In this document: positions 1 to 40,337 of the stretch, piece after piece
Layout of the letters: every line of letters begins with the position of its first letter
How positions within the stretch are numbered: the stretch's first letter is position 1
NCBI GenBank assembly: GCA_030539395.1
Contig: JAUNSC010000025.1
Coordinates: forward strand, 1 to 51,971
Source: Eubacteriales bacterium
GTDB lineage: Bacteria > Bacillota > Clostridia > Lachnospirales > Lachnospiraceae
Direction of reading: 5' to 3'
DNA: 51,971 bases
Position numbers and translations under genes: made by a program
The notes under the pieces: model-generated
What the model saw: the letters and a program-made list of their open reading frames with translations, nothing else
Told to the model about the DNA's origin: nothing
Databases searched by the model: none

Positions 1-60
1 ATACAGTCCTTGGAGAGGGACTATAAACACTACTACTTTATAATACGAGGAGGAATTTGT

Positions 61-14234: not shown

Positions 14235-14321
14235 AAAGAGTGGAGCCGCAGGCAGTTCCATGATATAATAAAGCCTTTAAAAATGATAATTGTCTGAAAA
14301 ATGATGGGATGGAGGTCATTC

Positions 14322-14669
14322 ATGAAAAAATGGTATGACGAAGAATACGAATTTGAAATTGAGGTAACAGGGTTTCTTCGTGGTGATCACACAGAGCGGT
14401 ATTGCCGAAACGGAGAGGAAGTCGGAGATAAATACACCTGTACTTATGGATGTCCTGTAAATGCGGATGGGCAAGGAATTTGTTCCAAGGTAATGATGAT
14501 GCTGTTTCCTATTATGGAGGCAGTCAGAAGTGGCGGGGATTTAGAAAACATTGGCGGTATCGGTAAATACTGCAAGGAAATCGTATGCCCGGATGGATGT
14601 GTGATGTTCCGCTTGACAGCGAAAAAACTTGGAAATGAGAACTTTTTTAAAGGAAAGTTTTTTGATTAG
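14322..14669 (+). CDS. TIGR04076 family protein
   Basis: The small 115-residue protein has a Cys cluster (RYCRNGEEVG, then CTYGCPVNADGQGIC) and the phrase SGGDLENIG typical of this uncharacterised family, which is common in Clostridia. ATG 14322 follows GGAGG with a 6-7 nt gap; an in-frame ATG at 14301 has no ribosome site. Function unknown; the Cys pattern hints at metal or redox use. A 17-bp piece of this gene (14532-14548) recurs exactly at 26104-26120. Confidence 0.8.
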   Translation: MKKWYDEEYEFEIEVTGFLRGDHTERYCRNGEEVGDKYTCTYGCPVNADGQGICSKVMMMLFPIMEAVRSGGDLENIGGIGKYCKEIVCPDGCVMFRLTAKKLGNENFFKGKFFD

Positions 14670-14696
14670 AAAAAGATAAAAGAAGGGAAACCGGAT

Positions 14697-15110
14697 ATGC
14701 TTGATAAAATACCAAATATGGACGATATGACCGCCCTGGTTGGACAGTCTTTATATGACGTGTGGCAAAAGCTATGCACTGCGATTGACAAGCAATATGA
14801 TATGGACTGCATTTGGAACAGCGGCGGTAAGGCATGGACCTATGAATACAAATACCGCAGGGGCGGAAAAACACTCTGCGCCCTATACGCAAGAGAGAAC
14901 TGCATTGGTTTTATGGTAATCTTGGGAAAAGACGAGCGGGCGAAATTTGAAGCCGGCCGAAGTGAGTATTCGGAAAGCGTTCAGAAGGTTTACGATGACT
15001 CAAAAACCTATCATGATGGGAAATGGCTGATGTTTGAGCCTGTTGACACATCTATGTTTGGAGATTTCATGCAGCTGTTGGCTGTTAAGAGAAGGCCGAA
15101 CAGGAAATAA
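14697..15110 (+). CDS. DUF3788 family protein, copy 1
   Basis: The 137-residue protein is typical of DUF3788: an N-terminal helix (LYDVWQKLCTAID), the core phrase WTYEYKYRRGGKTLCALY, and a C-terminal WLMFEPVDTS segment. A second, divergent DUF3788 protein is encoded at 16471. Function is unknown. AGAAGGG precedes ATG 14697. About 200 bp of non-coding DNA follows (15111-15310), holding a good ribosome site before a six-codon frame (ATG 15129). That looks like the stub of a lost gene. Confidence 0.8.
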   Translation: MLDKIPNMDDMTALVGQSLYDVWQKLCTAIDKQYDMDCIWNSGGKAWTYEYKYRRGGKTLCALYARENCIGFMVILGKDERAKFEAGRSEYSESVQKVYDDSKTYHDGKWLMFEPVDTSMFGDFMQLLAVKRRPNRK

Positions 15111-15310
15111 AGGATCGTGGAGGAGAAGATGTCAAAAAATCTGAGATAAGGTTGCTGACAGCTGTGAGAACAAGGACTTGACGGACAGTATGATGATTGG
15201 CATATCGGCAATCACAAACGTGGAAGTTGATGGAGCATGAAATACGCAAAAAAAGCTTTCGTTTTTTGTCGATAGCCAGACTGGAAACGATAAGCCAGGA
15301 GGTAGTTAAT

Positions 15311-15904
15311 ATGATATCTGCAATTTACGAAAGGCGGAGCACAAGAAAATTTTTAACAAGAGACATATCGAAAAGTGATATGACAGATATTATCCAAAGC
15401 GGAATGAAAGCGCCTTCATCTAAAAACAGACAGCCCTGGAAGTACATTGTGGTACAGGGAGATGCGAAAGAAGAAATGTTAAGGGTTTTCCGTCAGGGAA
15501 TTGCAAGGGAAGAAAACGAATGTGCGTTGCTGCCTCAGAGTAAACGCTATATTGCCGCAGCGAAACATACTGTTGATGTAATGGAAGCAGCACCGACAAT
15601 CGTTTTCGTTGTTAATTCATTGGGAAAAAATGAAATGGGGGAAATGACGCCGGAAGAACGTGTTTATGAGATCTGCAATATACAGTCCATAGGCGCCTCT
15701 GTTCAAAATATGCTTCTTGCCGCTACGGAAAAAGGAATAGGCAGCCTTTGGATATGTGATATCTATTTCGCATATTCGGAATTATGTGAATGGCTGAATA
15801 GCGAAGGACAACTTATTGCCGCTATTGCATTTGGTTATCCGGACGAATTCCCAGAAGAAAGACCACGCAAAAGAATAGAAGATATTGTTGAGTGGAGAAA
15901 TTAA
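15311..15904 (+). CDS. Nitroreductase-family oxidoreductase
   Basis: The FMN-dependent enzyme has 197 residues. The hallmark N-terminus ERRSTRKF and the flavin-binding PSSKNRQPWKY are present, with an Ala/Gly-rich C-terminal GQLIAAIAFGYP before PEERPRK. Such enzymes reduce nitro groups, quinones or related electrophiles with NAD(P)H. The start at ATG 15311 is set by CAGGAGG (15296-15302) with an 8-nt gap. The frame is open further upstream to 15197, but that part is not like the family. It is followed by a PNPOx-like gene, giving a flavin-linked pair. Confidence 0.88.
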   Translation: MISAIYERRSTRKFLTRDISKSDMTDIIQSGMKAPSSKNRQPWKYIVVQGDAKEEMLRVFRQGIAREENECALLPQSKRYIAAAKHTVDVMEAAPTIVFVVNSLGKNEMGEMTPEERVYEICNIQSIGASVQNMLLAATEKGIGSLWICDIYFAYSELCEWLNSEGQLIAAIAFGYPDEFPEERPRKRIEDIVEWRN

Positions 15905-15974
15905 GCGATATATTCAAGTAAACTTTACTAAGATGAATAGAAAATAATGATTGGTATTAAGGAGGAATATGTTT

Positions 15975-16409
15975 ATGAGTGAAAAATTCCCGCTGGAAGC
16001 GAAAAAGATAATGGATGAAAGATTTGGGCACGATACCTTACTGTCACTTGCCACTACGGACCAAAATATCCCGCATGTGAGAACTGTGAATGCTTATTAT
16101 GAGGATGGCTGTTTTTATATCATCACATACGCTGCCTCCAACAAGATGAAGCAGATAGGTAATAACCCCATAGTAGCGGTGGCTGGCGAATGGTTTACTG
16201 CGCATGGCAAGGGGGTAAACCTTGGGTGGTTCTGCAAAAAGGAAAACTATGAAATGGCCCAAAAGCTGAGACAGGCATTCAGCGAATGGATTGATAACGG
16301 ACACAACAATTTTGATGATGAAAATACGATCATCTTATGTGTTCAATTAACAGAGGGAATTCTTTTCTCTCATGGCACGAGGTATGACATAGATTTCGCT
16401 GGAAACTGA
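15975..16409 (+). CDS. Pyridoxamine 5'-phosphate oxidase-like FMN-binding protein
   Basis: The split-barrel protein has 144 residues: opening MDERFGHDTLLSLATTD, core IPHVRTVNAYYEDGCFYIIT and AASNKMKQIGNNP, the usual FMN-contact strands of the PNPOx-like superfamily. Such proteins bind FMN, F420 or haem; the substrate cannot be read from sequence. ATG 15975 is preferred over ATG 15969 because GGAGG (15961-15965) is 9 nt away rather than 3. It lies 70 bp after the nitroreductase. Confidence 0.85.
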   Translation: MSEKFPLEAKKIMDERFGHDTLLSLATTDQNIPHVRTVNAYYEDGCFYIITYAASNKMKQIGNNPIVAVAGEWFTAHGKGVNLGWFCKKENYEMAQKLRQAFSEWIDNGHNNFDDENTIILCVQLTEGILFSHGTRYDIDFAGN

Positions 16410-16470
16410 TTGCAACCTGCAGAAGCTATGTCTGTGCTATTGTAATTGGAAAGGGGGACTGTGAATCAGT

Positions 16471-16893
16471 ATGTTGGATTTGAAGGATATAAATTATATG
16501 CCAGATATATTTGAAATAAGTAATTACATCGGGAATCCGCTGTTTGATTCGTTTTGTGAATTTATGGATAGAGAGTATAAAGCATTGCGTAAAATTGAAT
16601 ACAGCAAGGACGTTTGGGCCCGTGGATGGAATATAAAGTTGAGAAAAGCAGGAAAATCTTTATGTGTAATCTATCCCAAAGAGAATTACTTCACTGTGCT
16701 GGTGGTTATCGGCAATAAGGAGAAAGAAAAGGTTGAAGGAATATTGCCTCAGTTATCTGATGAAATGCAGACAATCTACCGTGAAACAAAAGAAGGCAAC
16801 GGACAAAGGTGGCTTATGATTGAACTGCATTCAAATGATTGTATATATCAGGACACCTTGAAACTGATCCGCATTCGCAGAGAAAGTAAATAA
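16471..16893 (+). CDS. DUF3788 family protein, copy 2
   Basis: The 140-residue protein has the same layout as the gene at 14697: early FDSFCEFMDREY helix, core WNIKLRKAGKSLCVIYPKEN and late RWLMIELHSND. The two are clearly divergent rather than a recent duplication. AAGGGGG stands upstream of ATG 16471 with a long gap. Together the two DUF3788 genes bracket the nitroreductase/PNPOx pair. Function unknown. Confidence 0.78.
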   Translation: MLDLKDINYMPDIFEISNYIGNPLFDSFCEFMDREYKALRKIEYSKDVWARGWNIKLRKAGKSLCVIYPKENYFTVLVVIGNKEKEKVEGILPQLSDEMQTIYRETKEGNGQRWLMIELHSNDCIYQDTLKLIRIRRESK

Positions 16894-16924
16894 AAAGACT
16901 GAATCATAAATGGGAGGTGTTTCT

Positions 16925-17530
16925 GTGACAGAGTTAGAAAAATGTATGGCCGGCGAATTATATAATTGTCACGATGAAATCTTTCTGCAATATAAGAAAC
17001 AGGCAAAAGAGCTGCTTGACATTTATAACAGACTGACCTATGACCAGAAAGAAGAGAAGAAAGGGATTTTACATAAGCTGTTCGGCGGGATTGGAACAAA
17101 CGTGTCGGTAGGGGCGCCGTTCCTGTGTGATTATGGGTGTAATATTATTACCGGCAGCAATGTGTCGATCAATATGAACTGCTCCTTTATCGACTGCAAT
17201 CAGATAAAAATCGGAAATAACGTCATGATTGCTTCCAATGTGCAGATTTATACGGCAACGCATCCCGTGGAACTGGCAGAACGCCTGACACCAGACTGGA
17301 CCCCGGAGAGCGGAAAGCACTTTTGCCAGGTATATGCACTGCCCGTTGAGATCGGGGACGGGTGCTGGATCGGCGGTGGCGTCATCATACTTCCCGGGAT
17401 TAAAATCGGGGCTGGCAGTGTGATTGGAGCAGGCAGCGTTGTTACCCGAGATATCCCGCCAAATTGTGTGGCGGTCGGAAATCCATGCAGAGTGATTCGC
17501 AGAATTAACGGGGAACCAAAGCATGATTAA
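16925..17530 (+). CDS. Hexapeptide-repeat O-acetyltransferase (maltose/galactoside acetyltransferase type)
   Basis: The left-handed beta-helix acetyltransferase has 201 residues: N-terminal helical Mac domain (CMAGELYNCHDEIF), hexapeptide turns, the catalytic-site phrase IYTATHPVE, and the C-terminal GAGSVVTRDIPPNCVAVGNP signature. It should transfer acetyl from acetyl-CoA to a sugar hydroxyl. GTG 16925 is the start: GGGAGG (16912-16917) lies 8 nt before it and overlaps the alternative ATG 16910. It overlaps the HAD gene by 8 bp, so the two are cotranscribed. Confidence 0.9.
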   Translation: MTELEKCMAGELYNCHDEIFLQYKKQAKELLDIYNRLTYDQKEEKKGILHKLFGGIGTNVSVGAPFLCDYGCNIITGSNVSINMNCSFIDCNQIKIGNNVMIASNVQIYTATHPVELAERLTPDWTPESGKHFCQVYALPVEIGDGCWIGGGVIILPGIKIGAGSVIGAGSVVTRDIPPNCVAVGNPCRVIRRINGEPKHD

Positions 17531-18164
17531 ATTGGTGGCATTTGACTTGGATGGAACAATCGGAGATACGATACCAATGTGTATAAAGGCGTTCAGACAG
17601 GCAGTATCCCCTTATGCAGGGCATTTGCTGACAGACAGGGAGATTGTTGAAACCTTTGGATTGAACGAAATCGGAATGATAAAATCCATCGTTCCGGAGA
17701 ATTGGGAGCAGGCGTTACGTGATTTCTATTCTCTATATGAGAAACTGCATTATGAGTGCTCCCAGCCTTATGAGGGCATCCGGGAGTTAATTGCCGCTCT
17801 GCGGGCAAAAGGATTTATCCTTGCATTGATAACGGGAAAGGGCGAAAGAAGCTGCCGGATTACTTTGAATGAGTTTGGGATGGAACATGATTTTGATGAA
17901 ATCCTGACGGGCAGTGAAAGTGAAAATGTTAAGGCGCAGTCATTAAGGCTGCTACTAAAGAAATATGATTTGCTTCCTGCACAATGTGTGTATATAGGGG
18001 ATGCGGTATCAGATGTGTCAGAGGCAGGAAAAGCCGGAGTCGTATGCTTGTCTGCTTTGTGGGGAACAACTGCAAAGGCAGAAGAATTGAAAAGCATCAA
18101 TGCCGATTATATCTTTGAAACGGTAGGAGAGTTAAAAGATTACTTGCTCTCTGTGCCAGCATAA
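17523..18164 (+). CDS. HAD-superfamily hydrolase (phosphoglycolate phosphatase-like)
   Basis: The 213-residue HAD phosphatase has motif I FDLDGTIGDT (nucleophile Asp at residue 8), motif II ALITGKG and motif IV VYIGDAVSDV. An alpha-helical type 1 cap lies between motifs I and II. All catalytic residues are present. Likely a small-molecule phosphatase; the substrate is undetermined. It starts within the last codons of the acetyltransferase gene (8-bp overlap). Confidence 0.88.
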   Translation: MIKLVAFDLDGTIGDTIPMCIKAFRQAVSPYAGHLLTDREIVETFGLNEIGMIKSIVPENWEQALRDFYSLYEKLHYECSQPYEGIRELIAALRAKGFILALITGKGERSCRITLNEFGMEHDFDEILTGSESENVKAQSLRLLLKKYDLLPAQCVYIGDAVSDVSEAGKAGVVCLSALWGTTAKAEELKSINADYIFETVGELKDYLLSVPA

Positions 18165-18191
18165 AAAATCAAAATTACGGAGGTGAAGAGG

Positions 18192-18332
18192 TTGAATATT
18201 ATAGGTATCGGTTCCATATTTTGTCTCATCGCCGCGCTTTTAATGTGTGCAAGATATTTGACGGCTGCGATTTTTATGAGTGGCGGATTTTGGAAGCATG
18301 ATTTAAGGAAGCCTGTGAGGATAAACCCCTAA
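18192..18332 (+). CDS. Small membrane peptide
   Basis: This is a 46-codon frame starting at TTG 18192 with GGAGG at 18179-18183, 8 nt away. The product opens MNIIGIGSIF and has one hydrophobic span (about residues 3-31) and a basic tail (WKHDLRKPVR). It lies just after the HAD gene. Ribosome site and hydrophobic pattern support a real gene, but it could be the 5' remnant of a longer membrane protein. Confidence 0.5.
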   Translation: MNIIGIGSIFCLIAALLMCARYLTAAIFMSGGFWKHDLRKPVRINP

Positions 18333-18375
18333 CTTTAGGCTTGATCAGCCGGGCTGAGTTAGATTGATAAGAGAA

Positions 18376-18892
18376 CTGACAAACTTGAATTTGTAGGAGA
18401 GAATACGATATGAATTTAACATACAAGAGAGCAACGCTTGAAGATATAGATATATTGACAGAAACAAGAATAGAGGTATTAAGAGCAGCTAATAAACTTT
18501 CTGCTGATACTGATATGAGTGAAGTTGAAAGACAATCTTATAATTATTATCAAAAAGCTCTTTGTGACGGCTCTCATATTGCATATTTGGTTCTTGATGA
18601 AAATCGTTTTGTAGGGGCTGGTGGTGTTAGTTTTTTTCAAGTAATGCCGACTTACCACAATCCAAGTGGAAACAAGGCTTATATCATGAATATGTATACT
18701 AATCCTGAATATAGAAGACTGGGAATTGCTTATAAAACATTAGATATGCTGATTAGAGATACTAAAAGCAAGGGTATTACAGCTATTTCATTAGAAGCAA
18801 CTGATATGGGGCGACCATTGTATGAAAAGTATGGATTTGTAAAAATGAATGATGAAATGGAATTACCAGAGAGATAAATCCCAGTTTGTCAG
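18376..18892. repeat. 10-bp inverted repeat bracketing the GNAT gene
   Basis: CTGACAAACT at 18376-18385 and its exact reverse complement AGTTTGTCAG at 18883-18892 flank the AT-rich GNAT gene. No transposase lies between them. Chance is possible for 10 bp. Confidence 0.4.
18410..18877 (+). CDS. GNAT-family N-acetyltransferase
   Basis: The GNAT enzyme has 155 residues: strand and loop IMNMYTNPEYRRLGIAYKTL carries the acetyl-CoA pyrophosphate-binding RRxGIA motif, and RPLYEKYGFVKM is the usual C-terminal end. The substrate cannot be inferred. The gene is visibly more AT-rich than its neighbours, and a 10-bp inverted repeat brackets it (18376-18385 and 18883-18892), both consistent with independent acquisition. 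AGGAGAG precedes ATG 18410. Confidence 0.9.
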   Translation: MNLTYKRATLEDIDILTETRIEVLRAANKLSADTDMSEVERQSYNYYQKALCDGSHIAYLVLDENRFVGAGGVSFFQVMPTYHNPSGNKAYIMNMYTNPEYRRLGIAYKTLDMLIRDTKSKGITAISLEATDMGRPLYEKYGFVKMNDEMELPER

Positions 18893-18964
18893 CTTGTGAA
18901 AACAAGCATCATGTACAGCATAGGTTAGCTGGAATGGCTGGGTACAAGCTAGTTAGGAGGTATC

Positions 18965-19513
18965 ATGAAAGGATTTAACCGAAAAAATCAATTATTTTCC
19001 CTTTGCGGATTGAACTGCGGGCTTTGCCCCATGTTTTTGAGTAAACACTGCCCCGGTTGCGGGGGCGGCGAGGGAAATCAGTCCTGTAAAATTGCAAGAT
19101 GCAGCATGGAGCATAATGATGTGGAATACTGCTTTCAGTGCGATGAATACCCTTGTCCAAAATACGAGCATATGGATGACTTTGATTCCTTTATGACACA
19201 CCAGGGCCGAAAATCTGATATGGAGAGGGCCCGGCAGTTGGGAATAGAAGCTTATAATGCAGAGCAGGTGGAAAAGACAAAAATACTGGACATTCTCCTG
19301 TCCGATTTTAATGACGGGCGCAAAAAGACACTGTTTTGTACAGCAGTATCTCTTTTGGACCTGCGAGAGCTGCAGGCGGTACTCAGGCAAATTGAGGACA
19401 GAGCTGATTTGGAAACGCTGACGCTTAAAGAAAAAAGCGCTTTTGCCGCATGGCTGCTGAAGGCAGCAGCAGCGAAGAACAATATTGAGTTGAAACTGCG
19501 AAAGAAAAAGTGA
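18965..19513 (+). CDS. DUF3795 cysteine-rich protein
   Basis: The 182-residue protein has a dense Cys set in the first 70 residues (LCGLNCGLCP, CPGCGGG, SCKIARC, YCFQCDEYPCP). This is characteristic of DUF3795, which probably binds zinc or an iron-sulfur cluster. The C-terminal half is helical and Lys/Ala-rich. TAGGAGG lies just before ATG 18965. No reaction is established for the family. Confidence 0.85.
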   Translation: MKGFNRKNQLFSLCGLNCGLCPMFLSKHCPGCGGGEGNQSCKIARCSMEHNDVEYCFQCDEYPCPKYEHMDDFDSFMTHQGRKSDMERARQLGIEAYNAEQVEKTKILDILLSDFNDGRKKTLFCTAVSLLDLRELQAVLRQIEDRADLETLTLKEKSAFAAWLLKAAAAKNNIELKLRKKK

Positions 19514-19613
19514 GAATTTGGATATAGCCATCATTCATTAAGGGATGAAAATAAAGAACCGAAGTCGGAATATATCCGGTTCTTAGAAAGGACAGAAGAA
19601 GAGAGGTTTATTT

Positions 19614-20945
19614 TTGGTAAGAGAGTATCTACATACGAATGTTTATGATGCGTTTTTAGCACGAGTGCATTTTCTCTTTGAAGAGTTTGATCATATTTAT
19701 GTTTCCTTCTCCGGGGGAAAAGACAGCGGTCTGCTGCTCAATCTGGTTCTGGATTACCGGAATCAGCACTATCCGGAAAGAACCATTGGCGTGTTCCATC
19801 AGGATTTTGAGGCACAGTATACGGTGACGACTGAGTATGTGGAACGCACCTTTGAACGGATCAAGGATCAGGTGGAGCCTTATTGGGTCTGCTTGCCCAT
19901 GGCGACCAGAACCGCATTAAGCAGCTATGAGATGTACTGGTATCCATGGGATGATACGAAGAAGGAACTTTGGGTTCGGGAGATGCCTCAAAAAGAATAT
20001 GTCATCAATCTGGAAAATAACAGAATGACTACATACCGTTACCGGATGCACCAGGAAGATTTGGCAAAACAATTCGGGCGCTGGTACCGGGACGCCCATG
20101 ACGGCGGAAAAACAGTATGCCTGCTTGGAATGCGGGCAGATGAATCCCTGCAGCGGTACAGCGGGTTCCTGAATAAAAAATATGGGTATAAGGATACCTG
20201 CTGGATCAGCAAACAGTTTAAGGATGTCTGGTGTGCCTCCCCTTTATATGACTGGTCTACGGATGATGTATGGCATGCCACCTATTTATTTGGTTATGAC
20301 TATAACCGTCTGTATGATCTCTATTATATGGCTGGCCTGAAGCCCTCGCAGATGCGTGTGGCCTCCCCGTTTAATGACTATGCGAAGGATGCCCTGAATC
20401 TATACCGCGTCATAGACCCGGAGATGTGGTGCAAGCTTGTAGGTCGTGTACAGGGAGCAAATTTCGCCTCCATTTATGGAAAGAGCAAAGCGATGGGCTA
20501 CCGGAACATTACTTTGCCGGAGGGGCATACGTGGAAATCCTATACAAAGTTTTTGTTGGATACGCTGCCTAAAAGGCTGCGGAATAATTATGTGAAGAAA
20601 TTTAACACCTCTATCCGGTTCTGGCACGAGACAGGCGGCGGATTGGATGAGTCTGTGATTCAGGAGCTTCAGGAGAAAGGGTATCAAATCAGACGAAACG
20701 GTGTTTCCAATTATACACTGAACCAGAAATCACGGATTGTATTTGTGGGCTCCATACCGGATCACACGGACGATATCAAATCCACAAAGGATATCCCCAG
20801 CTGGAAGCGGATGTGTTACTGCATTTTGAAAAATGACCATATCTGCCGCTTCATGGGATTTGGGATGACACGGCAGCAACAGAAACGGTTGGATATGATA
20901 CGCCGTAAATACAAAAGCATAGAGGAATTCGATTATGAAGTATAA
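19614..20945 (+). CDS. IbrA-like PAPS-reductase family protein (DUF3440)
   Basis: The 443-residue protein opens with an adenine-nucleotide alpha-hydrolase PP-loop, SGGKDS (residues 33-38), as in PAPS reductases and DndC. A long C-terminal part typical of the DUF3440/IbrA group follows. It likely activates or transfers sulfur using ATP, but the true substrate is unknown. Start is TTG 19614 with a GAGAGG ribosome site. The next gene, a ParB-like IbrB homologue, starts 11 bp before this one stops, so the pair is translationally coupled. The same pair is known as IbrA/IbrB in E. coli, linked to activation of prophage genes. Confidence 0.85.
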   Translation: MVREYLHTNVYDAFLARVHFLFEEFDHIYVSFSGGKDSGLLLNLVLDYRNQHYPERTIGVFHQDFEAQYTVTTEYVERTFERIKDQVEPYWVCLPMATRTALSSYEMYWYPWDDTKKELWVREMPQKEYVINLENNRMTTYRYRMHQEDLAKQFGRWYRDAHDGGKTVCLLGMRADESLQRYSGFLNKKYGYKDTCWISKQFKDVWCASPLYDWSTDDVWHATYLFGYDYNRLYDLYYMAGLKPSQMRVASPFNDYAKDALNLYRVIDPEMWCKLVGRVQGANFASIYGKSKAMGYRNITLPEGHTWKSYTKFLLDTLPKRLRNNYVKKFNTSIRFWHETGGGLDESVIQELQEKGYQIRRNGVSNYTLNQKSRIVFVGSIPDHTDDIKSTKDIPSWKRMCYCILKNDHICRFMGFGMTRQQQKRLDMIRRKYKSIEEFDYEV

Positions 20946-21468
20946 AAGCCCAGTTTATAATGTAACAGCTGTTCCAATAGAAAAGGTACGGCCCAATACC
21001 TACAATCCAAATAAGGTTGCTCCGCCTGAAATGAGGCTGCTTTATGAGAGCATCAAAGAAGACGGATATACGATGCCGGTCGTATGCTATTATGTAAAAT
21101 CGCAGGACGTTTATTTGATTGTGGATGGTTTCCACCGGTATCAGGTGATGATGGATCATCCGGATATTTACGAGAGAGAACAGGGATTGCTGCCGGTTTC
21201 CGTCATTGAGAAACCGATTGATAAACGTATGGCCAGCACCGTTCGCCATAACAGGGCACGAGGCACTCATGATGTGGATCTGATGAGCAACATCGTAAAG
21301 GAACTTCATGAGTTTGGGCGATCAGACGCATGGATCTCAAAGCATTTGGGAATGGATAGAGATGAAATTTTGCGTCTCAAGCAAATTACAGGTCTTGCCG
21401 CTCTATTCAGGGATATAAAATTTGGAGAGGCGTGGCGCCCTGTAGAGGAAGAGACGGCAAAAGAGTAA
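20935..21468 (+). CDS. IbrB-like ParB/sulfiredoxin-fold protein
   Basis: The protein has 177 residues. A ParB N-terminal-like domain fills residues ~10-95 (VPIEKVRPNTYNPNKV, then IVDGFHRYQVM, the nucleotide-binding GxHR-type box). A helical DNA-binding-like segment follows (GRSDAWISKHLGMDRDEILRL). It overlaps the IbrA-like gene by 11 bp. ParB-fold domains can be CTPases or act on DNA. In this pairing the role is unclear, possibly a DNA or nucleotide modification switch. Confidence 0.83.
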   Translation: MKYKSPVYNVTAVPIEKVRPNTYNPNKVAPPEMRLLYESIKEDGYTMPVVCYYVKSQDVYLIVDGFHRYQVMMDHPDIYEREQGLLPVSVIEKPIDKRMASTVRHNRARGTHDVDLMSNIVKELHEFGRSDAWISKHLGMDRDEILRLKQITGLAALFRDIKFGEAWRPVEEETAKE

Positions 21469-21567
21469 ATAATATAGATGAGTGAAAGTAATAAATGCCC
21501 CTTGGCAGAAAAATAAGTGATGTTCTGCAAAGAAAATCAGATATTAATTATGGAGGTATGCTTGCAA

Positions 21568-22329
21568 ATGGAAAAATGGTTCACGATTGATCAGATTGAT
21601 GAGGATACATATATTATCAGCGAATACCGGCATTGGGAGGAGACGCATTGCTATCTGTTAAATGGCTCCAGCCGCAGCTTATTGATTGATACGGGTCTGG
21701 GAATCTGCAATATTTATGATGAAGTAATGAAGCTGACAAATAAGCCTGTCACGGCCGTTGCCACCCATATTCATTGGGATCATATTGGCGGCCATAAGTA
21801 TTTTCCGGACTTTTATGCCCATTCGGAAGAATTGAGCTGGCTGAACGGTGAGTTTCCGCTGACAATAGAAACAATCAGAGAGATGGTGGCAGACCGCTGC
21901 GATTTACCAGACGGTTACGATACAGGCACTTATGAGTTTTTCCAGGGGACACCAACAAAGGTACTGGAGGATGGAGAGAATATTGAATTAGGTGGACGGA
22001 ATATACAGGTATTGCATACCCCGGGCCATGCTCCGGGGCATATGTGTTTCTGGGAATCAGACAGAGGTTATCTGTTTACCGGAGACTTGGTTTACAAGGA
22101 CACTTTATTTGCCTATTATCCGTCAACAGACCCAGACGCATACCTTGCTTCTCTTGAAAAGATTTCGGAGCTTCCGGTCAAAAAGGTTTTTCCTGCGCAT
22201 CATAGTTTGGATATTCAGCCGGAGATTTTAAGCAGAATGAGAAATGCGTTCAGGCAGTTACGGGAAGATGGTAAATTACATCACGGCAGCGGTACATTTG
22301 ACTATGGAGATTGGGCAGTATGGTTATAA
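21568..22329 (+). CDS. MBL-fold metallo-hydrolase
   Basis: The metallo-beta-lactamase-fold enzyme has 253 residues with the metal box THIHWDHIGGH and further ligands HTPGHAPGH, FTGDLVY and a late PAHH. Two-metal catalysis should be intact. Glyoxalase-II-like or lactonase-like activity is typical; the substrate is unknown. I use ATG 21568 because homology begins at MEKWFT. GGAGG at 21552-21556 is 11 nt away, so TTG 21562 is an alternative start two codons earlier. Confidence 0.88.
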   Translation: MEKWFTIDQIDEDTYIISEYRHWEETHCYLLNGSSRSLLIDTGLGICNIYDEVMKLTNKPVTAVATHIHWDHIGGHKYFPDFYAHSEELSWLNGEFPLTIETIREMVADRCDLPDGYDTGTYEFFQGTPTKVLEDGENIELGGRNIQVLHTPGHAPGHMCFWESDRGYLFTGDLVYKDTLFAYYPSTDPDAYLASLEKISELPVKKVFPAHHSLDIQPEILSRMRNAFRQLREDGKLHHGSGTFDYGDWAVWL

Positions 22330-22424
22330 AGAGAAGGAAGCAGTATAATTTCATTTAGTTGTGTTATGCAAAAGGCTTTATCAGAACGAAAGAACAGCGA
22401 AAGAGGCTTGAAAGGAGCATTTAT

Positions 22425-22889
22425 ATGAAGTATGTATGTACAGTTATATCGGTAGCGGACATCAGCGCCGCAAGAAAGTTTTATGAGGAACTGTTCGGGC
22501 TAGAGGTCTATCAGGATTACGGAAAGAATATCGCTTTTACCTGTGGTCTGGCATTACAGCAGGATTTTGACTGGCTGGTAAGTATACCAAAAGAAAAGGT
22601 ATTGAAGAAATCCAACAACGCGGAAATCGTCTTTGAGGAACAGGATTTTGACGGTTTCCTGAATAAGCTGAAAGCATACTCGGACATCGAATATTTGGGA
22701 GAAGTTATTGAGCATAGCTGGGGACAACGTGTGATCCGGTTCTACGATCTGGACGAGCATCTCATAGAGGTTGGAGAAGATATGAAAATGGTAGTAAAGC
22801 GGTTCCTTGCTTCTGGAATGACTATGGAAGAAGTATCTGCAAAAATGGACGTATCTATTGAGGATTTGACAAAACTTCTAAACAACTAA
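22425..22889 (+). CDS. VOC (glyoxalase/bleomycin-resistance fold) protein
   Basis: The 154-residue VOC-fold protein has the paired beta-alpha-beta start VADISAARKFYEELFGLEV and the metal-site end FYDLDEHLIEVGED. A C-terminal HTH-like extension (FLASGMTMEEVSAKMDVSIEDL) is also present. ATG 22425 follows AAAGGAG. The 3' 144 bp of this gene (22746-22889) is the parent-like copy of a family of tail repeats that recurs downstream at four places. Likely a small-molecule dioxygenase, isomerase or drug-binding protein. Confidence 0.88.
   Translation: MKYVCTVISVADISAARKFYEELFGLEVYQDYGKNIAFTCGLALQQDFDWLVSIPKEKVLKKSNNAEIVFEEQDFDGFLNKLKAYSDIEYLGEVIEHSWGQRVIRFYDLDEHLIEVGEDMKMVVKRFLASGMTMEEVSAKMDVSIEDLTKLLNN
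22746..22889 (+). repeat. VOC tail repeat A (in the intact gene)
   Basis: This is the 3' end of the intact VOC gene, used here as reference. Copies of this tail occur at 23513-23656 (about 90 percent identical by eye, gap-free), 24031-24129 (more diverged), 24670-24711 (nearly identical but cut) and 26079-26105 (short). Confidence 0.85.
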
Positions 22890-22936
22890 TATATGGTAAG
22901 GGAATAAACAATCGGGATTTTGGGGGGAGAAGTGCG

Positions 22937-23467
22937 ATGTGTAAAATATTGTTAGTCAGACCGTCTAAACAATATGCAGACCAAGTTATGTCATATAAAG
23001 AAGAAATGTCACAAAATGGAGATAGTTTTGACGGTTGTGCTGGTCTTGAAAATGTACAATCATTTGAGGAATGGATTGATTTTGAAGCAAGATTAAAAGC
23101 AAAATACAAGGACGGATATGTTCCATCAGAAGTGTTTTTGGCTATACGAAAAAAAGATAACTATGTTGTTGGCATGATTGATTTTCGACACCCATTATCC
23201 GACTTCCTCTTTAATTTTGGAGGTAATATCGGATATAGTGTTCGTCCATCGGAACGGCAGAAAGGCTATGCGTCCGAAATGTTAAGATTGATTTTACCTA
23301 TCTGTCGTGAGTTTGGAGAAAGCAAAGTTTTACTAACATGCGATAAAAAGAATGAAGCATCACAAAAAACGATTGTAAAAAATGGGGGCATGTTGGAAAA
23401 AGAAATCCCTGATACAGTAGGACTTAGTGAAAGTGGAATTATTCAACGATACTGGATTTCAATATAG
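22937..23467 (+). CDS. GNAT-family acetyltransferase
   Basis: The protein has 176 residues. The acetyl-CoA site is read in YSVRPSERQKGYASEMLRL, and the late NEASQKTIVKNGGM is the usual GNAT alpha-helix. GGGGGGAG lies upstream of ATG 22937. The gene is AT-rich and sits alone between the intact VOC gene and tail repeat B, i.e. as a one-gene insert of the array. Confidence 0.88.
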   Translation: MCKILLVRPSKQYADQVMSYKEEMSQNGDSFDGCAGLENVQSFEEWIDFEARLKAKYKDGYVPSEVFLAIRKKDNYVVGMIDFRHPLSDFLFNFGGNIGYSVRPSERQKGYASEMLRLILPICREFGESKVLLTCDKKNEASQKTIVKNGGMLEKEIPDTVGLSESGIIQRYWISI

Positions 23468-23489
23468 ACCCTCTTTCATCAATTTAAAT

Positions 23490-23656
23490 TTGCCGGTAAG
23501 TAACACAATAGAGATCTGGATGGGCATCTCATAGAGGTTGGAGAGGATATGCAGATGGTAGTAAAGCGGTTCCTTGCTTCTGGAATGACTATGGAAGAGG
23601 TATCTGCAAAAATGGACGTATCCATTGAGGACCTAACAAAACTTCTGAATAGTTAA
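23490..23656 (+). repeat. VOC tail repeat B with joined 23-bp non-VOC leader
   Basis: Positions 23513-23656 match the VOC tail 22746-22889 base for base in length (constant offset 767, about 14 differences) and still end in a stop. Positions 23490-23512 are not VOC sequence. They and the following 29 bp recur at 26054-26105 with 49 of 52 bases identical. No start codon or ribosome site belongs to this fragment. Confidence 0.85.
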
Positions 23657-23693
23657 TTTGCAGTAGACAAATAAGTTGAAAGTTGGTGAGGTA

Positions 23694-24013
23694 ATGAATT
23701 TTGCAGATGTATCAGCGGGTGAATGGATTGTAATAGTTTTAGGGATATTACTTTCAATCATTCTAATTTCAGGACACGGCAAATGGTTTATTGCAGGATA
23801 TAATACGAGTTCTGCGGAAGAAAGAAAAAGATATAACTCTAAAAATTGTGCAGAACGGTAGGTGTTGGAATGGCTGTTATAGTTGTTCTGACTACGATTC
23901 ATCTATTGTTTAAAAATGTATTACCTACAGTATTTGAGTATATCATGGGAGTAATTATATTTGCAGATATTATAATCATATTAATTTTCTCAAATACAAT
24001 TTGCAGAAAATAA
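23694..24013 (+). pseudogene. DUF3784-like small membrane protein, frameshifted
   Basis: Frame 1 from ATG 23694 gives MNFADVSAGEWIVIVLG and the family phrase WFIAGYNTSSAEERKRY, then stops at 23860. The continuation (KKLCRTVGVGMAVIVVLTT, then a second hydrophobic helix ending NTICRK) lies in the -1 frame up to a stop at 24011-24013. The break falls in the A5 run at about 23841, where six A would restore the frame. Two membrane spans result. It is either a real pseudogene, a phase-variable tract or a sequencing slip. It is the cargo between tail repeats B and C. Confidence 0.7.
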
Positions 24014-24030
24014 GTAGCTATATAACGCTT

Positions 24031-24129
24031 GAGATATGCAGAATTCTTGCATCCGGCATGATGATGGAGGAAGTTTCTGTGAAGATGGATGCTTCCGTTG
24101 AGGATTTAACAAAACTTCTGAATAACTAG
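24031..24129 (+). repeat. VOC tail repeat C (diverged)
   Basis: It translates to ILASGMMMEEVSVKMDAS and then VEDLTKLLNN plus stop, the VOC C-terminal extension, with many third-base changes against copy A. It has no upstream VOC part. Confidence 0.75.
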
Positions 24130-24176
24130 AGAAAAAATAAAATTTTCAAATATGCTCTAAAGCAGAGGAGGATAAA

Positions 24177-24668
24177 ATGCCATATACATTTCAATCAGTG
24201 AAAAGCATGGGAAAATTAACAGATAACAGTAAACTATATAATTTCATCGAAGACTTTTCAGATTATGGAAATAAGTTTTCACTCATATGCGGTAAAATCA
24301 AAGCGCTATTTGGTCAACCGATTTATGAAACGGAAAATCTGGAGAATCTTTTTTCATACTGTATTCTGGCGACATCGGAAGAAGCGGAAGAAGTTTACTT
24401 AGATATTTACTGTGCAGGCTCAGGTCTTGCAGTTGGCGGTATATCGGACGAAAAATCCAGAAAGGCAGCAAAGGCTTTAGTAGATTATGTCCGACAAGCA
24501 AAAGCAATTGACTACGCACATAAAGCTTACAACTTAGATGGACCTACTGCTCTTGAATTCGGAATCAAAGATGGTACTCCTTATTATAACGAAACAGAGT
24601 TAAGTCTTTCGGAGAAAGAATTTAGAGAACTGTTTTTCAATATGTACAAAAACGGGGATACAAAATAA
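24177..24668 (+). CDS. Unrecognised small soluble protein
   Basis: The protein has 163 residues. AGAGGAGG precedes ATG 24177, so it is a real gene. There is no signal peptide or membrane span. The sequence is mixed alpha/beta, with Cys pairs (SLICGKIK, IYCAGSG) and a late acidic helix SLSEKEFRELFF. I recognise no family; size and style fit an immunity-like or effector-accessory protein, but that is only impression. Its stop codon (24666-24668) directly abuts VOC tail repeat D, so the gene body was joined exactly at its end. Confidence 0.65.
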   Translation: MPYTFQSVKSMGKLTDNSKLYNFIEDFSDYGNKFSLICGKIKALFGQPIYETENLENLFSYCILATSEEAEEVYLDIYCAGSGLAVGGISDEKSRKAAKALVDYVRQAKAIDYAHKAYNLDGPTALEFGIKDGTPYYNETELSLSEKEFRELFFNMYKNGDTK

Positions 24669-24669
24669 A

Positions 24670-24711
24670 AAAGCGGTTCCTTGCTTCTGGAATGATTATG
24701 GAAGAAGTATA
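24670..24711 (+). repeat. VOC tail repeat D (truncated)
   Basis: These 42 bases differ at one position from the tail of the intact VOC gene (FLASGM, MEEV phrase). The match begins one base after the stop of the preceding gene and fades at about 24711, 26 bp before the HD gene starts. Confidence 0.8.
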
Positions 24712-24737
24712 TTCAAAATTTATGACGGAGGTAGAAA

Positions 24738-25184
24738 ATGGTCTATACACAAATGACAATGAAAGCTTTGAAGTTTGCATATAATGCGCATTCCGAGCAA
24801 GTGGATCTTAATGATATTCCATATATATTTCATCCGTATCATTTGGCGGAACAGATGGACGATGAAATTTCTTGTACAGTTGCGCTACTACATGACGTTG
24901 TAGAAAATACCAAAATTACATTGGAAGATTTGAAATCAGAATTTCCCCATGAAGTAGTCGAAGCGGTTGCGATTTTGACGCATGATGAGTCTGTTGATTA
25001 TTTTGAGTATATAAAAGGTATTAAAGTAAATCCTGTTGCATTAAAAGTCAAATTAGCAGATTTGGCTCACAATTCAGATGACAGCCGATGGATAGGAACC
25101 ACGCACATTGTAGAACTGGACTTCAATCGACGAAAAGAAAGGTATTTGAAAGCAAAAGAATTTTTATTAAATACGCTACATTAA
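24738..25184 (+). CDS. HD-domain phosphohydrolase (RelA/SpoT hydrolase-like)
   Basis: The protein has 148 residues. The HD signature is in ALLHDVVENT (His52-Asp53), with an earlier His at 32 and the late KLADLAHNS box carrying the last metal ligand. This is the pattern of Mn-dependent (p)ppGpp hydrolase-type HD domains. There is no synthetase domain, so it would be a small alarmone- or nucleotide-hydrolase. CGGAGG lies before ATG 24738. Confidence 0.85.
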   Translation: MVYTQMTMKALKFAYNAHSEQVDLNDIPYIFHPYHLAEQMDDEISCTVALLHDVVENTKITLEDLKSEFPHEVVEAVAILTHDESVDYFEYIKGIKVNPVALKVKLADLAHNSDDSRWIGTTHIVELDFNRRKERYLKAKEFLLNTLH

Positions 25185-25259
25185 CATTAGAAAATGAGTG
25201 TTTATCAAAAGAGTTGGCTTATAACTATTATAATAAATCGGTGTTTAAGGAGATGTGGT

Positions 25260-26045
25260 ATGAAGATAGCCAATAAAAATATAGATAGCGGAAAAGCATT
25301 TGATTGGGGGAAAACATCTCCAGATTATGCAAAGTTTCGTGACATCTACCCACAAGAATTTTATCAGAAAATTATTGACAGGGGTTTATGTATAAACGGA
25401 CAATCTGTTCTCGATATTGGAACAGGGACAGGTGTTCTTCCCAGAAATATGTATAAGTTTGGGGCAAAGTGGACTGCTACGGATATTTCAGAGAAGCAGA
25501 TTGAACAGGCAAAAATTCTTTCAGAAGGTATGGATATAGTTTATTATACTATATCAACAGAAAATATAAATTTTCCGAACAATTCATTTGATGTGATTAC
25601 AGCCTGCCAATGTTTTTGGTATTTCGACCATGAAACAGTTATGCCTAAATTCTATAGTATGCTTAAAACAGGAGGAAGCGTTCTTGTTCTATATATGGCG
25701 TGGCTGCCTTATGAAGATATGATTGCAGGTGCAAGTGAAAAACTTGTGTTGAAATATAGTCCAAATTGGAGTGGTGCAGGAGAAACAGTTCATCAAATAG
25801 AAATACCTGATTGTTACAAGGAGAATTTTAAACTTGTGTACCATGAGGAATTTACTTTAAAAGTGCCATTTACCCGTGACAGTTGGAACGGGAGAATGAA
25901 AGCCTGTCGTGGTGTAGGCGCTTCATTGACAGAAAAAGAAATTTCCATGTGGGAACAAGAGCATAGAAAGCTTCTGAAACAGATTGCCCCTGATGAATTT
26001 GATATTTTGCATTATGGGGCTATCGCCGAAATTAGAAAGAATTAA
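25260..26045 (+). CDS. Class I SAM-dependent methyltransferase
   Basis: The protein has 261 residues. Motif I VLDIGTGTGVLPRNM binds SAM; ATDISEKQIEQA is motif II, and ITACQCFWYFD stands at motif IV. It resembles UbiE/YcgJ-type small-molecule methyltransferases. I choose ATG 25260 with GGAGATG upstream; an open frame back to 25194 overlaps nothing recognisable. It follows the HD gene by 75 bp, so both may be one insert unit. Confidence 0.88.
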   Translation: MKIANKNIDSGKAFDWGKTSPDYAKFRDIYPQEFYQKIIDRGLCINGQSVLDIGTGTGVLPRNMYKFGAKWTATDISEKQIEQAKILSEGMDIVYYTISTENINFPNNSFDVITACQCFWYFDHETVMPKFYSMLKTGGSVLVLYMAWLPYEDMIAGASEKLVLKYSPNWSGAGETVHQIEIPDCYKENFKLVYHEEFTLKVPFTRDSWNGRMKACRGVGASLTEKEISMWEQEHRKLLKQIAPDEFDILHYGAIAEIRKN

Positions 26046-26053
26046 ATTCTCAT

Positions 26054-26120
26054 TTGTCGGTGAGTAACACAATAGAGATCTGAATGGGCATCTCATAGAG
26101 GTTGGCGGGGATTTAGAAAA
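26054..26120 (+). repeat. Junction repeat E: shared 52-bp module, then a TIGR04076-gene match
   Basis: Bases 26054-26105 match 23490-23541 at 49 of 52 positions, including the exact switch point into VOC tail sequence. At 26104 it switches again: 26104-26120 equals 14532-14548 of the TIGR04076 gene (17 of 17). Confidence 0.75.
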
Positions 26121-26242
26121 GCTGCCGTGTAGCTGAGCGGAAAAGAAAATAAGAAGTTGTGTGGCTTGAAAATTGTAAGTTGCTTTTATGCGTTCTTGGC
26201 GTAAAAAGGTGTATTTTAAATTGAAAGGATGGTCGGGTGCTA

Positions 26243-26848
26243 ATGAAAGAAATCATCAACTTCATTGAAGCGAATGTGGATGGCAAAACGCTGTTTACAA
26301 AGGAATTAGTTTACGAACTTGAAAATGGTGCGTTACAGGGCGTTTACTCAGATCAAATATCTTTCTCTAATCTAAAATATTCTCAGAGCGGATTTCAGTT
26401 GGATATGTTTATTGTATCTAATGAGAAGATATGGCTCATGGGAAAGGATGGAGAACGGGAAAAATTGCGAAAAGATTTCAGTGGTGTATCCCTGTTCCGA
26501 TTTGAACTGGCGGAGCGAAAAAGCACGGATAGTTTGACTGGCTGTTTTCGTTTCATTTCAGCTTCAGGGAAAAATGTGGCAGCAGAGGCTATCGTAAGTG
26601 GAATTTATGATGTGCGTCTTGAAAATGATGTGCTGAAGTTATCGGAAGATCAGGTCTTGTATCGGGATCAGCCGATACAAGAAGGGCATTTTAAGCCCGT
26701 TGCATTTCAATCGGAACATCGTTTTTATGTTAAAGCTAATAAGCTGCACTATGAATACAACGGCAAGTGTTTTGATGTGGACTCAAAAACTATGCGGCGT
26801 AACGATAGCTCCGATACCTTTCCTCCGTTTATTTCAATCGAAAAGTAA
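26243..26848 (+). CDS. Unrecognised protein, beta-rich
   Basis: The product has 201 residues from ATG 26243. The composition and alternation suggest beta strands. There is no signal peptide or membrane helix. It contains WLMGKDGEREKLRKDFSG and a late HYEYNGKCFDVD. A weak GGATGG ribosome site lies upstream, hence moderate confidence in the start (GTG 26237 is possible). No family recognised. It lies between junction repeat E and a 5'-truncated TudS-like gene. Confidence 0.6.
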   Translation: MKEIINFIEANVDGKTLFTKELVYELENGALQGVYSDQISFSNLKYSQSGFQLDMFIVSNEKIWLMGKDGEREKLRKDFSGVSLFRFELAERKSTDSLTGCFRFISASGKNVAAEAIVSGIYDVRLENDVLKLSEDQVLYRDQPIQEGHFKPVAFQSEHRFYVKANKLHYEYNGKCFDVDSKTMRRNDSSDTFPPFISIEK

Positions 26849-26880
26849 GAAATAACGAATCAGTTTGACAGGAGTGCAGG

Positions 26881-27318
26881 GATGTTGATTTTTTCTTAAA
26901 TGCAGATATTGGTATTGTCCAAATGCCCTGTCCGGAGTTTTGCTGTTTAGGACTTGATAGGGGAAATATTCATGGCGCTGATAGCCCGGTAGTGGTAGAG
27001 AATACACGCATACGTTCAGCAATGCAAAATGCCGACTCGAATTTGAAACTAACAAGACTGGCTGATTATGTAGTGCAACATATCATGGAATATAAGAAAT
27101 ATGGATTTGAAGTTATCGGTATTATTGGGGCAAATCGTTCTCCCAATTGTGGTGTCGAAACAACATCGGACAATGATGCAGAAATCAATGGTATGGGACT
27201 ATTTATAGAAAAAATTTTTCACCAGCTTTTGCGAGAAAACATATCTATTCCCATGATAGGCATAAAGGGAACGGACATTCAAGAAAAACTTCAGCAGTTA
27301 ATACGAGCTAAAGGATAA
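26881..27318 (+). pseudogene. 5'-truncated TudS-related (CD3072-type/DUF523-like) desulfidase gene
   Basis: The open frame reads DIGIVQMPCPEF, then IGIIGANRSPNCG and a helical C-terminus, as in TudS-related thiouracil-desulfidase-like proteins. The N-terminal ~40 residues, with the first cluster-binding Cys (normally in an SHC-like motif), are missing. A TGA at 26866-26868 closes the frame upstream. The internal ATG 26923 has no ribosome site. With one of the Fe-S ligands gone it should be inactive. The missing 5' end lies close to the rearranged stretch around junction E. Confidence 0.7.
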
Positions 27319-27379
27319 GGACAAACATGATCTTTCCGTCCTTGAGAGTATATCAGAATAAGGCGAAATGGAGATTTGC

Positions 27380-27928
27380 ATGAAGGAAGCAACGAGATAT
27401 ATTGCGCTTTTGCGCGGTGTCAATATAAGTGGCAAAAATAAAGTTCCGATGGCTGAACTAAAGAAAGCTTTTGAGGAGCTTGGGTTCGGAGCGGTTAAGA
27501 CCTATCTGAACAGTGGCAATGTGATTTTTTCAAGTAATGAAGAGAATATAGGGAGCCTTACAGACCGGATTGAAACAACGATAAAAAAGTGGTTTGGTCT
27601 GGATATTCCGGTTTTCGTCATATCAAAAGAGGATCTCGAAGATATTTTGCAACACGCGCCTGACTGGTGGGGTGATGAAAATAAGGAAATCTATGATAAT
27701 CTGATTTTTATTATGCCTCCGGCTACATTTGCTGAAGTGTGGGACGAGATCGGGGACCCCAGGGAGGAATTGGAAAAGATTCAGGATTATAAAGAAGCGG
27801 TATTCTGGTCGTTCAGCCGGAAGGATTATCAAAAAACAAACTGGTGGAAGGAGACGGCACGTGCGGATATCAGCGGCAAACTGACAATCAGAACGGCAAA
27901 CACAGACAGAAAAATAGTTGGAAAGTAG
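27380..27928 (+). CDS. DUF1697 family protein
   Basis: The protein has 182 residues with the usual DUF1697 opening RYIALLRGVNISGKNKVPM and KTYLNSGNVIFSS, and a late W-rich ENKEIYDNLIFIMP to TNWWKETARAD end. It is widespread but its function is unknown. ATG 27380 has GGAG six nt before it. It is the last gene of the + strand array and converges on the GntR gene with a 29-bp gap. Confidence 0.87.
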   Translation: MKEATRYIALLRGVNISGKNKVPMAELKKAFEELGFGAVKTYLNSGNVIFSSNEENIGSLTDRIETTIKKWFGLDIPVFVISKEDLEDILQHAPDWWGDENKEIYDNLIFIMPPATFAEVWDEIGDPREELEKIQDYKEAVFWSFSRKDYQKTNWWKETARADISGKLTIRTANTDRKIVGK

Positions 27929-27957: not shown

Positions 27958-29418
27958 TTATTTTAAGGAATCCCTGTCGGGGACCTGAACCGATAAAGCC
28001 TCGGTAAAATTGTACTGATCAACCATATATGCCTGAACAGAGGCTAAAATCATACGGTAAGAGTCAGCCAGATTCTCAGCAAACTCTGCGTTTTTTCCAG
28101 AACGCAGACAGTGATACGCTCTCCGAGTGATTGCATTGAGCTGTTCGATTGCATCGGCTCCATGCGGATAAAATGCAAGATAGAACCCCCATTCTGTGAT
28201 TTGGCTCGTTTCATGCCAAATGACTTGTAATGGCTCTAAAGACAGGTGTTTAGAAATCATCTGAAACAAACTCGTGAGCGCAATCCTTGGCTTTTTAATT
28301 TGGTCAGCCAATACTATTAAATCATTTTCGCTAAAATGAGGTGCAGCGTAGGCTGCAACCGGATAGGACAATAGCACCATGAGCTGCAATGAATAAAGAT
28401 ATGTAAGGGCATCTCGCTTCGTAGTAAAATCCATCAGTGACAGTTCGGTGTTGAGCTGATCGGGAGTCAGAACCATTGTACCCTTGCCATTTAAAGTCTT
28501 TGTATAGCCTCTTTGTTCCAGCAGGCCCAATGCCTTTCTGACCGTATAAGCAGACACGCCATACTGCTTTGCCAGTTGTGCCTCATAGGGCAAATAAGCC
28601 CCGGCCTGGTAGATGCCTGTTCCGATTTTTCGAGTCAAGTCACGGACAATACGGGAATAGTAGTAATCCTTGCCTCTTAGAGGATTCCATTCAAATGCAG
28701 CTGGCGTCCGGGCGGGAACCTTGGCAACGCTGTCTGACAGCTGAATGAAAATTTCTGTAATGATGGCAGACATGTCCTGATAAAGTGCTTTTAAATGATG
28801 GTACTGTTCCACTGGATTGCGTTCTGATAATACCTCAATGATTGATCGAGGTTCAAAAGTTGGCCTCCGGTACATGATATCTTGGGAAAAGCTGCATTTT
28901 TCTAAAAAGTACGCAAAATTCCCCTGAAGATCAAAGGCTGTATGCAGATCACATAACAGAGGATTATGGCTGGCGCTTAAAATATCCCTTGTCAACGCAA
29001 TCAGAGCCTTCCAGCTCTCGAAACAGATTCCCTGCTGTGCCGCTCTTTGCGCCTGCCGATAATGAGGCATGGACTCAACCGAGCAGTTATGCGAGGCAAA
29101 TACAAGCAGATAAGGTAACAATCGTCCATAAGTTTCATATACCTGTAAGATAGAATCCCGCTGCTCTAAAATTGCAGTTATTCCGGGGCCTGTTAAGTTG
29201 TGCGGAAGGACTACGGGGGCCTGCCGGATTTGAATATCAATAAATTTTTCAGCCTTTAAGGTATCCAGTACCCGCGTAATGGTCGCAATCCCTACATTGT
29301 ATTCTTCACATAGATTTCTGGAAGAAGGGAGTTTGCTGCCGGTCTGGAATTGCCCTGAAACAATACGTTTTTTTAAATCTTCATATACATAAGAAAAACG
29401 AGTTTCCTGTCGTTTCAT
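27958..29418 (-). CDS. GntR-family regulator with two winged-helix domains
   Basis: The protein has 486 residues. A GntR winged helix at the N-terminus (VYEDLKKRIVSGQFQTGSKL, then YNVGIATITRVL) and a second, equally complete one in the middle (RIVRDLTRKIGTGIYQAGA, then YGVSAYTVRKALGLLEQRG) alternate with helical regions that may bind ligand. Two DNA-binding domains in one chain is unusual. Start ATG 29418 has GGAC-type spacing upstream; a longer frame to 29451 is less likely. It is divergent from the c-di-GMP operon across a 287-bp gap and is the obvious candidate regulator. Confidence 0.88.
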   Translation of the reverse strand: MKRQETRFSYVYEDLKKRIVSGQFQTGSKLPSSRNLCEEYNVGIATITRVLDTLKAEKFIDIQIRQAPVVLPHNLTGPGITAILEQRDSILQVYETYGRLLPYLLVFASHNCSVESMPHYRQAQRAAQQGICFESWKALIALTRDILSASHNPLLCDLHTAFDLQGNFAYFLEKCSFSQDIMYRRPTFEPRSIIEVLSERNPVEQYHHLKALYQDMSAIITEIFIQLSDSVAKVPARTPAAFEWNPLRGKDYYYSRIVRDLTRKIGTGIYQAGAYLPYEAQLAKQYGVSAYTVRKALGLLEQRGYTKTLNGKGTMVLTPDQLNTELSLMDFTTKRDALTYLYSLQLMVLLSYPVAAYAAPHFSENDLIVLADQIKKPRIALTSLFQMISKHLSLEPLQVIWHETSQITEWGFYLAFYPHGADAIEQLNAITRRAYHCLRSGKNAEFAENLADSYRMILASVQAYMVDQYNFTEALSVQVPDRDSLK

Positions 29419-29705
29419 AATATAAATGTCCTTTCTAAAGCTCAAACACATATTGCTTTTAGTATACTACAAAATTCAGAATAGTGGTAATGGAACTTGA
29501 AGCAAAGCGGTGTATGGGTGAGTTTATTCAGCAATTTCTTCTTGTGTATGATGGGGTGTAACAGTAAAATATAGATGAGACGTTGACAAATAAAAATTAA
29601 GAAGTGCGGCTGAAAAGGCCGTAAAATTTTTTTCTGATACCTATTTGCTAAGGTGGGCAGAATGGTATGAGAAAAAGTAATATAAAAATTCACTGGAGTG
29701 ATGAT

Positions 29706-39323: not shown

Positions 39324-39464
39324 TTGGGGCAGTCTAGCTACCCAGATGACAAAAGCGATATTACCGGAATCATTTATGAGCCGTGGCATTATCGTTATGT
39401 AGGGAAAGAAGCGGCGAAAGAAATATATGATTTGGATGTCTGTCAGGAGGAATATTTGTACTGA
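39324..39464 (+). pseudogene. VanY-type D-Ala-D-Ala carboxypeptidase, 3' fragment 1
   Basis: About 45 codons in frame read DITGIIYEPWHYRYVG and EAAKEIYDLDVC, ending at TGA 39462. This is the C-terminus of VanY-like carboxypeptidases, with the catalytic Glu and zinc His in EPWH. No upstream part is present. The fragment begins directly after the zinc-ribbon stop. Bases 39412-39443 are identical to 48221-48252, and similarity continues weakly past the stop. Confidence 0.85.
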
Positions 39465-40253: not shown

Positions 40254-40293
40254 TTGGCCCGAAGTTATTCCCCGGTGCCGCTCCCCGCCGCTT

Positions 40294-40329: not shown

Positions 40330-40337
40330 AGGTCAAT

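Follow-up and report, generated by a model that had tools for sequence, protein, structure and literature searches.

Integron cassettes, including the integrase-less arrays known as CALIN, are small single genes on one strand, separated by short gaps with a near-palindromic junction sequence, and their order is reshuffled. The boxes of their attC sites have the forms RYYYAAC and GTTRRRY. The dif modules of Acinetobacter plasmids are also small, reshuffled gene modules and are bounded by short recombination sites, while conjugative elements have cargo regions. Integrons are described as extremely rare in Firmicutes (PMC9024848), and the pdif sites are described as 28 bp long, with XerC and XerD arms and in alternating orientation (PMC13141974). 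The locus considered here lies on a contig of a Eubacteriales bacterium of the Lachnospiraceae, and we will use the term "window" for the whole stretch of 51,971 nucleotides that was analysed.

The window contains an array of ~22 small same-strand genes, some of them remnants, which occupies positions 13719..27928 of the plus strand according to gene calls and domain matches, and which reaches well beyond the stretch with the five VOC tails described below. The families represented are YpsA, DUF3788 (two genes), nitroreductase, PNPOx, hexapeptide acetyltransferase, HAD, GNAT (two genes), DUF3795, DUF3440, ParB-like, MBL, VOC, HD, methyltransferase, and DUF1697, together with unassigned genes. 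The gene at 26923–27318 has a weak, below-cut-off match to 2-thiouracil desulfurase (PF04463), is shorter than the relatives of its cluster, and is probably a remnant. As in integrons, same-strand single-gene cassettes are reordered between genomes: many of the same families recur in other orders at related loci, judging from the part of the gene lists shown.

Like cargo carried by conjugative elements, the array has a conjugation-type module as its neighbour. Domain matches identify in this module a T4SS coupling protein (10..1923, plus strand), a SpaA/thioester surface protein (4693–9216), and a sigma-70 region 2 protein (12004–12597). On its right, according to gene calls and domain matches, the array is bordered by a GntR-family gene (27958..29451, minus strand), which is followed by a response regulator. 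The order is the same in Blautia parvula (G062), where, with gene names assigned by eye, a module of similar type is followed by an array and then by GntR/response-regulator genes, and where a second array starts ~87 kb further on. A short VOC array was also seen by eye directly after a lysS-like gene at locus L148 (about 4779–8826), and likewise near the B. parvula element. Further along the window there is a 53-nt direct repeat (39406–39458 and 48215–48267, 89% identical, 8.8 kb apart), and transposase-like sequences are present at 39536–40414, with a DDE_Tnp_1 match just over the cut-off, and at 44237–45616, recognized by eye only. A search of seven loci for RNA elements gave one match, the DUF3268 RNA (RF02966) upstream of the array in L028 (2636–2754). 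A known RNA element was rejected for the window stretch, where the only matches to RNA families are far below gathering scores.

In the preliminary description, an intact VOC gene followed by four partial copies of its 3′ end was reported within the array. All five places have been recovered both by a repeat search within the window and by querying the genome to which the window belongs with positions 22746–22889 (E = 2.6e-70, 1.2e-51, 4.7e-13, 6.0e-15, and 2.2e-4 in order, the last being the weakest). Copy A (22425..22889; all five are on the plus strand) is the intact gene, a Glyoxalase_2 protein, and is defined by gene calls and the own-genome search. Copy B (23489..23656) is a 5′-truncated VOC unit formed by a non-VOC leader and a VOC tail, and positions 22746–22907 and 23513–23674 are 86% identical over 162 nt. 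Copy E (26053..26120) has the same leader and a short VOC stretch, and positions 26045–26112 and 23481–23548 are 88% identical over 68 nt; both B and E are defined by repeats, the own-genome search, and relatives. The leader common to these two copies is ~24 nt of non-VOC sequence (TTTGYCGGTRAGTAACACAATAGA) preceding the VOC part. Copy C (24046..24128), defined by repeats and comparison with L053, is a decayed VOC tail with 78% identity over 83 nt. Copy D (24670..24718), defined by repeats and the own-genome search, is a VOC fragment without the leader; its identity, previously put at about 98%, was measured as 94% over 49 nt. The genes between the tails, all on the plus strand, are a GNAT gene, a putative DUF3784 gene, a 163-aa gene without a Pfam match, an HD gene, and a methyltransferase gene. 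The putative DUF3784 gene (23694–24013) is split over two overlapping frames, with ORFs of 61 and 55 aa, and thus looks frameshifted.

The recurrence of tails between unrelated single genes has been observed in other genomes too. One contig scan with a 50-aa tail gave 291 pattern stretches and 110 relatives, 80 of which were kept, and the leader is joined to VOC sequence in 10 of the 80 kept loci (L008, L009, L010, L012–L015, L017, L018, and L043). In those ten loci, a VOC gene precedes the leader–VOC unit, and the genes that separate the two differ. A search of 397 genomes from the window's family with the 205-nt leader-plus-tail unit of L008 gave matches in 21, the window's own included; most of these matches cover the VOC part only, and three reach into the leader (own genome, G148, and G353). 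A class-level draw gave matches in 3 of 391 genomes, namely the window's own and two with matches of 26–30 nt. The scan of viral contigs gave 33 pattern stretches and no relative, and among plasmid and phage records there were partial, distant matches to three plasmids and one phage, one of them a Monoglobus plasmid that carries two GNAT genes next to a methyltransferase gene. A viral, plasmid, or phage origin was rejected.

Leader-bearing tails, in the window and in relatives, join the leader to the VOC part at one identical place, which points, on the sequence evidence, to one truncated VOC ancestor for all of them, including copies B and E. The leader-bearing tail starts at the junction site described below. 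Upstream of it stand gene ends of ten classes, in two cases with another site intervening, and downstream of it come genes of several types, so that it acts as an independent unit instead of closing off each cargo. Copy C is, by comparison with relatives, a decayed VOC, since in locus L053 the same 163-aa gene is immediately preceded, across the same junction, by a full-length VOC gene. An intermediate is present in L014. No full-length counterpart of copy D was found.

The junction site has been identified by motif discovery (EM) on 262 non-redundant gaps of related loci, with VOC tails removed; whole loci were used, and some of the gaps lie outside the arrays. The strongest de novo motif is a 16-nt near-palindrome, about AAATYCCAGTTTGTC. 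The best 16-mer, AAAT[TC][CT]CAGTTTG[TC][CA]G, exceeds 7 nats in 59 of 262 gaps versus 5 of 74 control gaps, and the five control hits may themselves be sites, from stretches of B. parvula that look array-like. By strand, the motif is present in 65 of 278 gaps in the forward orientation and 21 of 278 in reverse, compared with 2.4 of 278 in shuffled sequence, and it often overlaps stop codons or sits within 25 nt of them. At loci outside the training set, the results vary: the new array L142 has the site in 3 of 10 gaps versus 0.1 in shuffles, L145 has it in 2 of 9 gaps on the printed list and shares 1.6 kb with a training region, the chromosomal L143 has it in 0 of 8 gaps, and the printed list for the new locus L148 has no site in gaps. 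A strict form of the pattern gives 65 matches in 14 genomes versus 6 for the reversed pattern. With a single strand read, 12 of 30 strict-pattern places were located, and 8 of these 12 are inside an ORF.

Five places in the window, all on the plus strand, exceed 7 nats, and most gaps of the window do not. The best is the junction site between GNAT and DUF3795 genes (18876..18891, 14.3 nats), followed by the sites before copy E (26044..26059, 10.5 nats), before copy B (23480..23495, 8.3 nats), and between HAD and GNAT genes (18381..18396, 8.1 nats). A weaker, junction-like match lies between the ParB-like and MBL genes (21493..21508, 8.1 nats). In addition, the VOC gene has a right-hand junction, AACAATCGGGATTTTG, 17 nt past its stop codon (22907..22922, plus strand), which is recognized from the VOC 3′ ends of relatives. 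The 17 nt past the VOC stop are kept, and then AACAAATC/GGAATTTG runs into different genes. There are 66 VOC 3′ ends, whole or truncated, that fit this pattern, with 28 distinct continuations; a wider list holds 91 VOC ends, several of them lacking the pattern form. Conservation at the VOC 3′ ends is 1.0–1.8 bits and drops below 0.5 beyond the site.

The partners on the two sides of the site are mixed. A table of 133 sites gives 56 classes upstream and 55 downstream, and two or more partners are seen for 15 of the former and 13 of the latter; classes were formed by single linkage and some have merged, so these counts are approximate. One gene end meets different leaders at the site, and one leader follows different genes. 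The gene end U8, for example, meets leader D0 in L009 and leader D8 in L010, and D8 follows four gene-end classes, the one at 18876 in the window among them. The switch among U8, D0, and D8 falls a few bases past AAAT. Where the continuations of gene ends are otherwise unrelated, the change from one to another is confined to a few bases inside this same motif, and the sequence in common is at most about 16 nt.

It is possible, although we regard it with considerably more doubt than confidence, that no dedicated system is at work, and that the arrays are shaped by homologous recombination in repeats (VOC genes and tails) and by short-repeat deletions, with the motif serving as short homology, by chance or in general repair. 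The cleanest single-gene difference, that between loci L028 and L029, is in keeping with such a process. Over the compared 11.7 kb, these loci have 15 base differences outside a 396-bp insert, five of them in the 3′ part of the VOC gene, and there are three more differences at the junction where the 396-bp gene was gained. Because of this cluster in the VOC tail and at the junction, a clean insertion at the site was rejected for this pair, and the difference points, again from sequence, to homologous import. The near-identical 12-kb regions of L028 and L029 occur in records named as different bacteria, which suggests a very recent transfer. Among the indels listed (at most 80 of 240 non-redundant), many have their breaks within genes, where short direct repeats occur. 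Most breakpoints also lie away from the motif, though those near it are enriched (right breakpoint clusters, 75 of 1065 versus 17.9 expected; left breakpoint clusters, 92 of 1604 versus 29.6 expected). A best-event breakpoint test separated poorly (above 6 nats, 22 of 57 versus 14; above 4 nats, 22 versus 24) and was set aside for its biased control. The cross-validated test used in its place gave 5.9 of 57 families versus 1.7, a modest result obtained with a blurred, in-sample start matrix. Against homologous recombination and deletion as the whole explanation stand the unrelated continuations that switch inside so short a shared sequence and the discovery of the motif without prior knowledge of it.

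The near-palindromic form of the motif, its proximity to stop codons, and its strict-pattern matches elsewhere in the genomes would also fit a regulatory or 3′-end element (e.g., a processing or protein-binding site) that is passively carried by gene ends, but the switch between unrelated partners falls inside the motif, and we consider this explanation unlikely. The preliminary description had proposed repeated insertion of "cargo + replacement tail" units at the VOC 3′ end, in the manner of islands that restore a tRNA end. VOC 3′ ends are indeed intact before many different genes. However, the sequences after the VOC gene diverge from 17 nt beyond the stop codon onward, which leaves no tail in need of restoration, and inserts each closed by a copy of the target 3′ end were looked for and not found. 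With the tail being a separate unit that has ten upstream classes and several downstream genes as partners, and with the full-length VOC of L053 at the place of copy C, a finding that the preliminary description had itself named as contrary, this proposal is largely refuted and has become very improbable. Equally improbable is a degenerate form of a known system, either CALIN cassettes or Xer dif modules, which would account for the same-strand, single-gene, cassette-like layout and the near-palindromic junctions. IntI (TIGR02249) gives hits in all 14 genomes, each of them below the 265-bit cut-off, so the array is no known integron. The attC boxes are present in 0 of 27 paired sites, a comparison of short strings in which some pairs may be chance, and only 3 of 12 folded sites have z below −3; an attC-like hairpin, suggested by paired arms, was dropped after these two tests. 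The best match in the window to a dif of the B. subtilis type has mismatches at 9 of its 28 positions. Thus, the array differs from integrons and CALIN in having no IntI over the cut-off, no attC boxes, no consistent hairpin, and a 16-nt site, and from dif modules in having a 16-nt site and genes on one strand instead of 28-bp pdif sites in alternating orientation (PMC13141974).

The explanation we propose, to which we assign an even chance, is cassette-like exchange at the site by a putative recombinase, combined with homologous recombination and decay. Single genes would be exchanged by recombination within the 16-nt near-palindromic site, with the switch point between AAAT and CAGTTTG, leaving a gene end free to meet different leaders and a leader free to follow different genes. 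The VOC gene would be one common cassette, copies B and E would represent one defective cassette (leader plus 5′-truncated VOC) that has spread through the arrays, and copies C and D would be further decayed VOC pieces. The arrays, lying next to conjugation-type modules, would also change through homologous recombination between stretches they have in common, the VOC tail for example, and through deletions at short repeats. The sequences themselves show the motif, the mixing of partners at it, the sharp point of divergence, a single truncated form in several settings, and the VOC origin of copy C. No recombinase is present within the window's array, and we infer that a site-specific recombinase acting at the motif is supplied in trans from elsewhere. 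Weighing against the proposal are the many breakpoints away from the motif, the poor and modest results of the two breakpoint tests, the indels at short repeats, the L028/L029 difference, the strict-pattern places inside ORFs, the gaps of L148 without a site, and the lack of a recombinase hit next to the arrays. Among the matches listed, none of the recombinase families is found beside the arrays in every one of the three complete genomes inspected. In B. parvula, ~47 kb separate the array region from the nearest listed tyrosine recombinase, and in G061 and G063 the distance exceeds 150 kb. As for serine recombinases, a small resolvase was seen ~13 kb from the array in G063 and a fragment close to the arrays of G062, with none in the G061 stretch examined.

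The array may resemble an integron or dif-module array in its working, but it failed the defining tests made. More tentatively, and with somewhat less than even confidence, the arrays may represent a distinct integron-like gene-capture system of the Lachnospiraceae, with a 16-nt site and a recombinase in trans, with conjugation modules as neighbours, and with no relationship to IntI/attC or dif modules. No description of such arrays was found among the literature matches listed, from a coverage that leaves out preprints and most subscription papers. If the proposal is true, the junction site would provide a defined short sequence for seeking a recombinase, and gut Lachnospiraceae would have their own means of collecting and reordering single genes, which would help to explain the spread of small enzymes such as acetyltransferases, VOC proteins, nitroreductases, and DUF3795 proteins.
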